Assembly: GCA_937928735.1 (NCBI GenBank)
Contig: CALFVF010000023.1
Location: 1 to 64,000 of the forward strand
Reading direction: 5' to 3'
DNA: 64,000 bases
Source of the DNA: an uncultured Verrucomicrobiales bacterium
GTDB lineage: Bacteria > Verrucomicrobiota > Verrucomicrobiia > Verrucomicrobiales > Akkermansiaceae
Shown here: positions 5,792 through 51,109 of the stretch, piece after piece
How the letters are laid out: every line of letters begins with the position of its first letter
Numbering within the stretch: the first letter of the stretch is position 1
Made by a program: the position numbers and the translations under genes
The notes under the pieces: model-generated
What the model was told of the DNA's origin: nothing
What the model saw: the letters and a program-made list of their open reading frames with translations, nothing else
The model's database searches: none

Positions 5792-5896
5792 TCATTCAAC
5801 TCATACTACTTTTTAAAAACGCTCTGGTAGAATTTATTAGATATTCAATCAGATCGTTTTCACTAGTGGTATAAGCTTCTCTAGCCTATCTATAGA

Positions 5897-7758: not shown

Positions 7759-7763
7759 GTTTA

Positions 7764-7923
7764 GGACACCTCCGGAAACCTCATTTCTGAAAACGCCATC
7801 AGATTTCTCCATCTCTGTGTTGTCCACGATCCTTATGAATTCATTCAAAAGAGATCGCGTTTGCCTTGATCTGAAAAAACCTGAAGGCCTTTTTTAATAG
7901 AAAGCAGGTTACCGGAGGTGCCC
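7764..7923. repeat. Family B inverted-repeat element, copy 2 (complete)
   Basis: A 160-bp element bounded by GGACACCTCCGGAAACCT (7764-7781) and, reading inward from the right end, GGGCACCTCCGGTAACCT (complement of 7906-7923); 16 of 18 positions match. It is flanked on both sides by TTTA (7760-7763 and 7924-7927), a likely 4-bp target duplication. The interior matches positions 1-148. No coding capacity, so this resembles a MITE. Confidence 0.85.
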
Positions 7924-7926
7924 TTT

Positions 7927-8087
7927 ATACCAACTCAAAAAACTAACTGGTCGAATTCGCTAGATCTTTGACGAGATACCATCGTTGTCACCCCCCCCCG
8001 CAGATACTCGCATCACCGGTGGGTTCCGCCTTGATCTCCCACCAAATCTCTTCGCCTTTTTTACCAGTTCGTTTTCCTCATTGGTAT
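7927..8087. repeat. Family A inverted-repeat element, copy 1 (complete)
   Basis: A 161-bp element. The left end starts ATACCAACTCAAAAAACTAA and finishes CTGGT; the right end, read inward, starts ATACCAATGAGGAAAACGAA and finishes CTGGTA. The ends are imperfect inverted repeats of about 26 bp, and each end itself carries TACCA and TGGTA arms. TTA flanks both sides if the element is counted from TACC to GGTA. The interior contains a run of nine C (7991-7999) not present in the other copies. It abuts family B copy 2 and lies between the 3' ends of the MnmM-type and RND genes. Confidence 0.9.
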
Positions 8088-8123
8088 TATCAGTGGCAGT
8101 GAATCATAGAGCCGCAGCTCTGT

Positions 8124-11100
8124 CTATTGACTCGCCGTGGGTTCTTCGGGAGGACGCTGTTTACTGGTGGTTTTTTGGAAGGGTCTTAGGTACCAGACTT
8201 TTATTTTTGCGAGACCTTGGGATAGGTCTTCGCCAATCAGCATGGCACATGGAATGAGAATGAGAGTGATGAAGGTGGCAAAGAGAATACCAAAGCCCAG
8301 TGAGGTGGCCATGGGGATGAGGAACTGGGCTTGTATACTCTTCTCAAAAATAATGGGAAGTAAGCCCGCAAAGGTGGTGATCGAGGTGAGAATGATGGGG
8401 CGGAATCTCCGAACCCCTGCTTGGTGCACAGCGTCTTGGAATGTCTCTCCGGCGCGTCTTTTTTGGTTCACATAATCGACTAGAACCAGAGAGTCATTCA
8501 CCACCACACCAGCCATGGCGAGAATCCCAAAGACACTGAGCCAAGAGGGCGTGAGATCAATGATGATGTGTCCTACAATGGCGCCTAAAATGCCGAAGGG
8601 GACAGCAAGCATCACATAGAATGGCTGAGTGAAGGACTTGAAGGGAATGGCCAGTAGGGCATAGAGGGTGAACATGAGAATGGCTCCGGCCTCTAACATA
8701 CGCTTTAGTTTGACATCATAGTCTGCGAGATAGCCGTCGTAGCGCCATGTGGTGTCCGAATACTGCTGAGCGATGGCATCGAGCTCAGGAGTGAGGGCTT
8801 CTTCAATGGTAAATAGATTCGTATCGGTAGTCAGAGGTGTGGCATAGACCTGAGTACCGCGCTGGCCATCTATGCGCTCAATGGCTGGAGGGGTGAGCGC
8901 TTCATTGAGAAGGGCTACATTTTGTAATTCTGTGGAGCCTTCATTGGGGAGATTAATTCGCAGTGTTTCTAGTGTGTGGAGAGATTTCCGCTCTTCTTCT
9001 GGCAGGCGAATCATGACCCGTAGATTGTCTTCTCCGCGCTGGAGTCGCTGGGCTTGGTCACCAAAGAAAGCAGAGCGCACCTGAGCAGCAACTCCAGCTT
9101 CAGAAAGTCGTAGTTCCTTACCCTCTGGACGCAGAGCGACATTGATTTCGCGCTGTAGCTTGCCGTGGTCAGACCAGGCAGTCTGGATGTCATCACGCTC
9201 CTTGAGCCAGTCGACAATGTGATTGGCGATAGCCTCTCGACTAGCGTCATTGGGGCCTAAGATCTCGATTTCGATGGACTCAGTTTCCTCACCACTGCGG
9301 CCGGCATCCTGAGTTCGGATAGAGAATCGCTTGATCCCTTGTATCTCACCGACTTCAGCTCTCCACGCTTCTGCGACATCATCGTTGACCGCCACAATCT
9401 CAGTACGCTGACTAGGTGGGGTGAGTTCGACGAGAACAAAGCCAACTTGAGGATTACTCCTGCCAAATGTGGGGAATCCCCCCGCTGAGGAGAGAACACT
9501 ACGGATAATGGATTCGCCACTACCTGAGTCAATGAAATCTCCTTTGATTGTATTGACAGCCTCTACGACTCGGTTGACAGCATGGTTGGTGTCTTCAAAT
9601 TCGAGCTCAGAGTCCATCTCAAGACGCGCAAAAATAAAGTAGCGATCCACTGTGGGGTGATCGGTGAACTCTGGATGCATCTTGTGCAGATAATAGCTGC
9701 CAATAATCGCTGCTAGAGCGAGGAAGCACGCGACTGTAGCGTAGCGAAATGAGGTCGCAAATCTCAGGAGTGGTGTGTAAACGATACGCACGAGAGCTTC
9801 GAGACCGTCGGCGATTTTTTTCTGAATACGGCTAAAGAAACCAGGGTTTTTGCGAGGTTGGAGGTGCTTGAGGTGAGCGGGGAGAATGAGTTTGGACTCC
9901 ACGAGGGAGAAGATTAGAACAGGAATGACAACCAGTGGAATCTGGCGTGCGAGCTCGCCCTCGCGAGATTCTAAAAACAACAGTGGAGTGAAGGCAGCAA
10001 TCGTTGTGATCACTCCAAAGGTCACGGGAACAGAGACTTCCTTCGTGCCAATGATGGCGGCATCGAGGCCATTCATGCCACCACGCAGTCTGGAGTAGAC
10101 ACTCTCACCGGTGACAATGGCGTCATCCACAACGATACCAAGAACAACAATGAAGCCAAAGAGGCTCATGATATTGGCGGTGACTCCGAAGTAATTCATC
10201 GAAATCAGAGCTCCCGCAAAGCTGATGGGGATACCAATGACGACCCAGAGAGCGACCTTTGGCCTCAGGAAGAGAGTGAGGGCAATAAAGACCAGCAAAA
10301 TACCCTGGAGCAAGTTACTCACGAGGGTGGAAATACGGCCACGTAGACTGATGGAGTCATCATCCCAGGTCGAGAGATTGACCCCTTCGGGGAATTTTTC
10401 TTGAGAGTTAGCGACGTAGTCTTTGACTGCCTGAGAGATGGCGAGGGCGTCTTCTCCGTCTGCGCGCAGTACCTCACAAATCATCGCTGGCTCACCATTG
10501 AAGCGCACGATCTTATCCTCATCTTCAAAGGAATCCTTTGTAATCGCTATGTCTCCGAGCTTGAGCTCTGCGCCATTTGCTCGTCGGATGGTGATGTTAT
10601 CGAAGTCCTCTTTCGTATAAGCTTGGGCTTTTGTGCGTAGAAGGACTCCGCCATTGGAGCCCTTGATGACTCCAGCTGAGAGGTCAATGGAGGATGTTCT
10701 GACAGCTTGAGAAATATCCGCTAAGGTGAGATTGTAAGCTCGAAGGGTGTCTTTGGGGACTTCGATGGTGACTTGCTGGTCGCGGTCGCCTTTTATTTCT
10801 ACAAATGAGATTTCTGGTAAACTGGTGAGATCATTACGCACAGAGCGGATCCCCTCGAGGAGTTCTTCCTCGGAGAGTTTTCCAGAGAGCACGACAGAAA
10901 TCACCTCATACCAGCTTGCTGTACTGGGGATCTGGATTCTCGGTCGCTCAGATTCTTCTGGAAATGTGTTAATGGCATCGACTCGAGCCGTGACATCTTG
11001 GAGGATTTCTTTTTGTTCGCTCTCACTGAGATGTTTTTCGAGAAAAAGCCGCACTCGACCATTGTCTCTGCGAGCCGAAGAGCTCATACCGCGCACCCCT

Positions 11101-20818: not shown

Positions 20819-20976
20819 ATACCAATGAGGAAAACTACCTGGTAGAAAGGGCGAAGAGATTTGGTGGGAGATCAAGGCGGAACCCATCGGTGATGCGAGC
20901 ATCTCCGATGAGTGACAACGATGGCATCACCTCAAAGATCTAGCGAATTCGACCAGTTCGTTTTTTGAGTTGGTAT
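20819..20976. repeat. Family A inverted-repeat element, copy 2 (complete, opposite orientation)
   Basis: A 158-bp copy in reverse orientation relative to the one at 7927. It starts ATACCAATGAGGAAAACTAC and ends, read inward, ATACCAACTCAAAAAACGAA. The interior is the same sequence as the other copies, including CACCGGTGGGTT-like and GATCTCCCACC segments. The flanks TTA and TGA match only in part. It sits between the hpf terminator and the ppiC promoter region. Confidence 0.9.
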
Positions 20977-40076: not shown

Positions 40077-40235
40077 ATACCAACTCAAAAAACTATCTGG
40101 TAGAATTCGCTAGATCTTTGAGGAGATACCATCGTTGTCACTCACCCGTAGATGCTCGCATCACCGGTGGGTTCCGCCTTGATCTCCCACCAAATCTCTT
40201 CGCGCTTTCTACCAATTAGTTTTCCTCATTGGTAG
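40077..40235. repeat. Family A inverted-repeat element, copy 3 (complete)
   Basis: A 159-bp copy in the same orientation as the one at 7927. It starts ATACCAACTCAAAAAACTAT and ends CTCATTGGTAG. Flanking TAA and GAA match in part. It lies between the beta-CASP start and the Minf_1886 stop. Confidence 0.9.
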
Positions 40236-50915: not shown

Positions 50916-50924
50916 GTGCTCATA

Positions 50925-50950
50925 ATGCCAACTCAAAAAACGAACTGGAA
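50925..50950. repeat. Solitary, slightly diverged family A terminal repeat
   Basis: ATGCCAACTCAAAAAACGAA and then CTGGA, a left family A end with two or three changes. It starts 9 nt after the dnaN stop and precedes the dnaN terminator. Confidence 0.75.
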
Positions 50951-50970
50951 AAATTACTTTCAAAGAAAGA

Positions 50971-51000
50971 AAAAAGGCACCATTTGTGGGTGCCTTTTTT
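50971..51000 (+). terminator. Rho-independent terminator of dnaN
   Basis: AAAAAGGCACC (50971-50981) pairs with GGTGCCTTTTT (50989-50999), 11 bp, followed by further T. Confidence 0.92.
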
Positions 51001-51015
51001 TACGCCTTGGGACTA

Positions 51016-51058
51016 ATACCAACTCGAAAAACCAACTGGTAGAATTCCTCATTGGTAT
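51016..51058. repeat. Family A mini-element with internal deletion
   Basis: A 43-bp sequence joining a nearly complete left end (ATACCAACTCGAAAAACCAA then CTGGTAGAATT) directly to the outer 12-13 bases of the right end (CCTCATTGGTAT). About 115 bp of interior is missing. It is flanked by TAA on both sides when counted from TACC to GGTA. It lies between the converging dnaN and plsX genes. Confidence 0.85.
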
Positions 51059-51109
51059 AATCTTGAGCCGGGGCTGTGTGAGAGTATAAAGTAGCTAGTA
51101 GCCAGAACT

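Follow-up and report, generated by a model that had tools for sequence, protein, structure and literature searches.

Family A, a non-coding repeat of 155-159 bp, is best explained, with a probability of about three in four, as a non-autonomous DNA transposon (MITE) that forms one branch of a Verrucomicrobiota superfamily defined by a structured core and not by its ends, the core being kept, probably as a one-strand structure. MITEs are usually seen as remnants, the ends of which match a parent insertion sequence (IS) and the middle of which has decayed. The family A superfamily inverts this expectation, with a conserved and covarying middle and ends that turn over, and could help to explain how non-autonomous elements manage to outlast the transposases on which they rely.

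Copies, limits and insertion of family A

The source genome is a draft of 2.65 Mb and 94% completeness. Alignment of 30 copies from this genome fixed the limits of the element, which starts with TACCAACTC and terminates with ATTGGTA; homology stops at both of these exact ends. The three copies reported in the original prediction (7927-8087, 20819-20976 and 40077-40235) are present in the window, the whole stretch of 64,000 nucleotides that was analysed, with those coordinates taking in one flanking base per end. Their features are listed below, with core scores from the two covariance models R1 and R2 described in the next section.

7928..8086, minus strand (strand of the structured core): family A copy 1, full element, 159 bp, flanks TTA/TTA
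7925..7927, no strand: left target duplication TTA of copy 1, inside the right-hand TTTA duplication that belongs to a family B element
8087..8089, no strand: right target duplication TTA of copy 1
7928..7952, plus strand: left end unit of copy 1, CTC type, TACCAACTC...CTGGTC
8062..8086, minus strand: right end unit of copy 1, TGA type, read inward TACCAATGAGG...CTGGTA
7962..8060, minus strand: structured core of copy 1, R1 73.4 bits, R2 51.3 bits
20820..20975, plus strand: family A copy 2, complete at 156 bp and in inverted orientation; its plus-strand flanks are unlike, TTA on the left and TGA on the right
20846..20941, plus strand: structured core of copy 2, R1 94.9 bits, R2 68.4 bits
40078..40234, minus strand: family A copy 3, full element, 157 bp, flanks TAA/GAA
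40112..40208, minus strand: structured core of copy 3, R1 90.8 bits, R2 66.4 bits

The TACCA/TGGTA arms noted earlier within each end were recovered, as the end units begin with TACCA and finish with TGGTA, the final A being replaced by C in two of the six units. The terminal repeat, described before as 26 bp with six mismatches, has to be corrected to 25-bp units with 7, 8 and 7 mismatches between the ends. No ORF of at least 80 aa lies inside any copy, in line with the lack of coding capacity first noted; a mechanical 90-aa frame at 7985-8257 crosses the right end of copy 1. At 5815-5872 of the window lies a degenerate stretch similar to the ends of family A (TACCACTAGTGAAAACGATCTG...), which may be an old relative.

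The search of the genome for many copies with precise ends found the family to be multicopy and its ends exact, far above chance. By blastn, at least 40 near-complete copies were detected (40 of 132 candidates scored), and the covariance model, applied to 150 of 565 candidates, found at least 44 full-length and at least 3 shortened cores. The end motif, with up to three mismatches, occurs 151 times in the genome compared with none for the reversed control. Among the loci examined, a script recovered 39 two-ended copies; 36 measure 155-159 bp, two are shortened to 112 bp and the remaining one to 41 bp. A literature search brought up no account that we recognised as this repeat family, which does not prove it unpublished.

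Comparison of the flanking 3-mers revealed identity in 34 of the 39 two-ended copies (TAA in 17, TTA in 16 and TGA in one), against a mean of 15.3 and a maximum of 27 in 10,000 permutations of the flanks. Non-identical flanks were found in the other 5 copies and in 11 of the 30 single end units treated below; within the window, only the first copy has identical flanks. The copies lie outside ORFs in 29 of 39 cases, whereas 1782 of 2000 random 157-bp placements overlap an ORF, ORFs here being simple calls of at least 70 aa, so that some of the "inside" cases are frames running across the element. The neighbouring genes are convergent at 14 copies, tandem at 14 and divergent at one, with 10 copies inside or across an ORF. 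The MITE reading is borne out by the exact ends, by the identical TNA duplications and by the dispersed, mostly intergenic placement; family A is a MITE whose target, TNA, is duplicated over 3 bp. Such a duplication does not fit the REP/RAYT mechanism, which argues for a MITE and against the REP-like alternative offered with it.

Fold and distribution of the core

The core of family A is a hairpin of about 96 nt with tandem G-A internal loops. It was derived from a set of 13 middles (A2; five from E54, one each from genomes G016 and G226, and six of family A) gathered by their ends or by blastn and not by structure. The A2 consensus hairpin has 24 pairs, 16 of which carry double changes, and 96.5% of its cells are paired compared with 78.4% after shuffling and 39-46% when the partner was slid by 1-3 columns. 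None of 500 shuffles reached the A2 paired fraction or its double-change count. The covariance model R1 was built from A2, and R2 from a second set of 29 cores (A3), which leans towards R1 because 22 of its 29 rows were R1 matches. Double changes occur in 25 of the 27 A3 pairs, with a paired fraction of 94.2% versus 65.6% and a covariation score of 0.777 versus 0.219. Under the predicted fold, which comes from one structure program, compensatory changes exceed the controls in both sets, with 0 of 500 shuffles reaching them and much lower values for slid structures. RNA folds of single whole elements gave z-scores of -4.1 to -7.2. With DNA parameters, the fold of one copy beat most shuffles modestly (z -2.16) and the consensus core was not formed.

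GA/GA internal loops are found at three places, in 18, 24 and 13 of the 29 sequences, respectively; of the other internal loops, GC/AA is present in 25 of 29, and in 20 of the 29 AA faces GC and one further base. The internal loops have a mean entropy of 0.65, compared with 0.93 for the paired columns in that stretch (P 0.023 by permutation) and 1.14 for all pairs with the outer stem included. As the mismatched loops are kept, arm-to-arm correction of a palindrome is unlikely. Non-Watson-Crick pairs are distributed asymmetrically, G-U outnumbering A-C by 27 to 1 in A2 and by 55 to 10 in A3, an asymmetry partly built in by a folding program that allows G-U. Such an excess is what folding of the CAAGGCG strand itself would produce, and under the modelled fold it hints at a one-strand, probably RNA, role. 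In 35 of 76 distinct loci, compared with 4.7% of shuffles, the core is followed by a stem of 3 bp or more with a GNA triloop at its tip.

No match at the gathering score was found in the window with Rfam release 15, and the four sub-threshold matches from 20 loci searched at E ≤1 or 0.5 all lie outside the cores. A sub-threshold match to the Rfam Acido-Lenti-1 RNA (28.4 bits, gathering score 37) is located outside the core element, at 2262-2308 of locus L243. The core is apparently an undescribed structured nucleic acid. Membership of a conserved RNA gene had been named as an argument against a mobile element; the middle is indeed a conserved covarying structure, yet it sits inside a mobile element, so that only the former part of this alternative stands.

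A blastn search detected no relative in 57 related genomes, whereas the structure model did detect relatives. The degenerate end unit was found in five other genomes among 260 searched in the same GTDB family (reversed control 0). Relatives that could be read at both ends are about 197-236 bp long and carry one TGA-type and one CTC-type end, with the exception of G246; at some sites just one end is visible, and one element in G220 is interrupted by another repeat. In this genome (L094, L088 and L099), one core element is apparently divided by a different short repeat, about 95 bp long, which lies directly against others. Searches of named records gave 12 end-unit stretches, three of them chance matches (L130, L133 and L135) and nine of them Verrucomicrobiota elements, from Verrucomicrobiaceae bacterium E54, an uncultured Verrucomicrobiales bin and a Verrucomicrobiia bin; eight of the nine, which extend this kind of end to other genera, have identical TNA flanks. 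The interiors of relatives found by their ends have the middle in common with family A.

At E ≤0.001, R1 matched 53 of the 260 same-family genomes, in 11 of 16 genera and with the source genome included, and gave no match in the other 207; up to 16 candidates per genome were scored, making the copy numbers lower bounds. In a sample spread evenly over the phylum, R2 matched 27 of 387 genomes and 21 of 198 genera, again including the source genome, with up to 10 candidates per genome scored and matches near E 0.001 uncertain. When R2 was run on 30 loci, 20 of them without a known core, it matched only family A, E54-type and family B elements at E ≤1. A strict core string gave five chance-like matches in the 387 phylum genomes, and the covariance model was needed. 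In viral contigs, six stretches fitting a first string pattern for the core were judged to be chance on reading, a stricter pattern gave none, and two stretches resembling the end unit were also judged to be chance. By blastn, neither one core query against plasmids nor one element against phages gave a match.

A second repeat family, B, occurs at 1-148 and 7764-7923 of the window, with the ends GGACACCTCCGG / GGAGGTGCCC and a TTTA/TTTA duplication at 7760-7763 and 7924-7927. Family A copy 1 sits inside its right duplication. Among the loci examined, family B is found elsewhere in four copies (L017, L053, L054 and L058) and three partial ones (L040, L065 and L071). Its middle carries TCAAGGC...CAACGCAGAGAT and has weak scores with the core models (E 0.014-0.18 for R1 and 0.006-0.27 for R2), which is suggestive of a core in family B as well.

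Turnover of ends and short forms

Among 113 core-bearing loci, the script placed 68 in eight end classes and left 45 unassigned; many of the latter fit these classes by eye, and about a dozen are weaker phylum matches without clear ends. The classes are as follows.

TACCA with TNA: 31 loci, 27 with identical triplets; picked with TNA flanks in mind, so that mainly the N is tested
(TA)GTG...: 16 loci, one of them (L193) wrong; TA flanks by construction
GTGCATCG: 6 loci; TA on both sides in 2 of 6
GCAGCCTGTTGAAAAA: 4 loci
GACTGTTTGCCAAAAG: 4 loci
GAACCTGTTTGGATAAAA: 2 loci
GGGYCCG...AAATAACTT: 4 loci, one doubtful; TTA on both sides in 2 of 4
GGGTCTATTCCCG: 1 locus

L193, placed by the script in class T2, is a misassigned TACCA element, and its genome G004 is not a two-class genome; in class T7, the left end of L246 is doubtful. 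TA lies on both sides of all four GACTG elements, of two of the four GCAGCC elements and of the one GGGTCTATT element, and TTA on both sides of one of the two GAACC elements. Since TA is its own complement, a TA flank can be either a duplication or part of the ends. TA is the flank in most of the other end classes, so that a change of target duplication in these would be tentative, and several TA classes may be diverged relatives.

Two or more end classes occur in each of six genomes (G190, G232, G207, G246, G030 and G135). On a tree of 87 cores, 85 of which were labelled, ten end classes need 11 changes, where the minimum on any tree is 9 and shuffled labels need a mean of 40.2; the labels were partly set by eye and the count depends on the class definitions chosen here. 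The tree is built from few columns, with 33 open forks and rough bootstrap values, and its well-supported branches force just one origin for the larger classes. The difference between 11 changes and the shuffled mean indicates that core and ends for the most part descended together. Cores that often exchange their ends were not supported, as the ends follow the core tree. The comparison suggests that ends were replaced, or diverged beyond recognition, several times, and that the core for the most part persisted.

Shorter forms of family A were also found, those in the window being as follows.

51017..51057, plus strand: 41-bp derivative with an internal deletion that fuses the left unit to the final 16 bp of the right end; duplication TAA/TAA
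14484..14508, plus strand: single 25-bp end unit, flanks GAA/GGA
50926..50950, plus strand: decayed single 25-bp end unit beside a terminator-like hairpin, between dnaN and a convergent fatty-acid synthesis gene

The same 41-bp junction is present at a second locus, L047. At 50916-51109 of the window, the decayed unit, the terminator-like hairpin and the 41-bp derivative lie within about 130 bp. The 112-, 41- and 25-bp forms carry duplications though most or all of the core is missing, implying that, provided these forms themselves moved, insertion can perhaps do without the core. The 25-bp units stand alone without an interior, most of them with TNA flanks on both sides. For 30 unique singles, drawn mainly from sites with 0-1 mismatch among 100 listed of the 151 motif sites, the flanking triplets are identical in 19 (permuted mean 9.3), and 28 lie outside ORFs. 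Position 19, which was free in the search pattern, is A in all 30 singles and T in 22 of the 39 two-ended copies (Fisher 1.3e-7), so that the singles do not look like end units sampled at random from full copies. The CTC type makes up 28 of the 30, one of these being TTC. Identical 25-mers account for 20 of 30 singles and 3 of 39 two-ended copies, a difference inflated by choosing singles at 0-1 mismatch to the pattern.

By their sequences, the core-less singles look like a separate lineage, either spreading on its own or descended from an older set of full copies; 25 bp would be smaller than expected for a two-ended transposase complex to handle. Alternatively, they could be non-mobile footprints left when a longer element was lost between TGGTA direct repeats. 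Loss between the inner and the outer TGGTA would yield exactly a single with its duplication kept, as seen in the 19 identical triplets, whereas the invariant A at position 19 and the predominance of the CTC type speak against it, simple slippage predicting both end types. We give the footprint origin a little under an even chance.

Mobiliser, rival explanations and known systems

The search for a transposon with matching ends did not yield a parent for family A. None of the 7 DDE_Tnp_1 (PF01609) and 4 Y1_Tnp (PF01797) matches in the source genome belongs to a transposon bounded by TACCA ends, and no IS5-type DDE transposase with such ends was found among them as a mobiliser. A MITE can outlive its parent transposon. 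The genome encodes two RAYT-like Y1 transposases, 375 and 371 aa long, and an incomplete third that a contig end cuts off (L031, L032 and L034, on contigs 37, 18 and 22). The three genes are 78-92% alike in DNA, and two of them lie at contig ends. In length the proteins exceed the 146 positions of the NCBIfam REP_Tyr_transpos model; they reach 61.7 and 63.9 bits, below its cut-off of 80, but pass the Pfam Y1_Tnp cut-off. Within up to 1.5 kb on each side of the Y1 genes, some of these stretches being cut by contig ends, the only family A end was a 5-mismatch match inside another ORF.

We propose that a DDE-type transposase encoded elsewhere would cut at the outer ends with a 3-bp stagger, and that several DDE transposases would have mobilised the elements in trans over time. 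When the transposase supply of the host changes, a core lineage could persist by gaining ends for another transposase. The core would be kept as a one-strand structure, most likely as RNA 3' of host genes, where the hairpin might make insertions tolerable or protect transcripts; less likely, it might act as single-stranded DNA during transposition. That the core is kept through an effect after insertion is a guess, with the odds about even. A bolder version, held tentatively and against which we would rather bet, takes the phylum-wide core (a hairpin with three tandem G-A loops) as what is really inherited, an RNA or ssDNA module, whether selfish or useful, that would have swapped ends and transposase some ten times in our sample, with family A also spawning a self-spreading, end-only lineage of 25 bp.

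Family A could instead be an ordinary MITE from one IS, for example of IS5 type with a TNA target, and its middle a palindromic by-product kept by template switching or gene conversion. The TNA duplication, the exact ends and the joint inheritance of core and ends are consistent with this, and in a palindrome matching changes can arise on the two arms even when selection is absent. However, correction between arms would erase the mismatched loops, which are kept and are more conserved than the surrounding pairs, and the same core occurs with other ends; this origin is therefore quite unlikely. The layout of singles and inverted pairs of one 25-bp unit matches REP/REPIN, in which the singles would be REPs and the 158-bp element a REP pair moved by a RAYT (Y1) transposase, and RAYT-like genes are indeed present. 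Against this stand the 3-bp target duplications, the absence of any GTAG/CGTC tag seen at the units, the sub-cut-off NCBIfam scores, despite those above the Pfam cut-off, and the lack of a family A unit beside the RAYT-like genes apart from the 5-mismatch match, making such an origin very improbable and leaving the REP-like option unsupported in its RAYT sense.

The core might also be primarily a host-beneficial RNA, an mRNA 3'-end stabiliser or an RNase III-type processing site comparable to Correia/NEMIS, with mobility secondary. The covarying RNA-like hairpin and the near absence of divergent neighbours are in favour of this, as is the RNase III processing proposed for Neisseria NEMIS transcripts (PMC2229807). 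On the other hand, the patchy presence, with most genomes of the family giving no match, is unlike that of a needed host gene, and avoidance of promoters alone would yield the same placement. We regard a primarily host-serving core as possible but unlikely. The preferred reading remains a mobile element with a conserved one-strand core.

The IS1031 group, which is of IS5 type, has a TNA target, and MITEs of IS5/IS1031 type resemble family A in the 3-bp TNA duplication and short inverted ends. They differ in that no IS5-type transposase with TACCA ends was found among the matches in the source genome and that the family A core also occurs with other ends and TA flanks. REP/REPIN elements are similar in their short units, single and in inverted pairs, whereas family A has target duplications, no RAYT gene beside its units and no tetranucleotide tag seen. 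Like structured RNAs in Rfam, the core is a covarying hairpin with conserved loops, but no Rfam match overlaps a core. Nearest in layout, compared by description and not by sequence, is Correia/NEMIS, which belongs to another host group and has a target duplication of TA, in contrast to TNA in family A. In PMC2229807, Neisseria elements are described with forms of about 155 and 107 bp, hairpin transcripts, proposed RNase III cutting and an almost exclusively intergenic long form, and PMC10969869 adds their many copies; the passages on these elements describe no single core shared by elements with different ends. According to the MITE review PMC10969869, MITEs are small because their transposase and other core sequences have decayed, which is the opposite of the conserved middle of family A.
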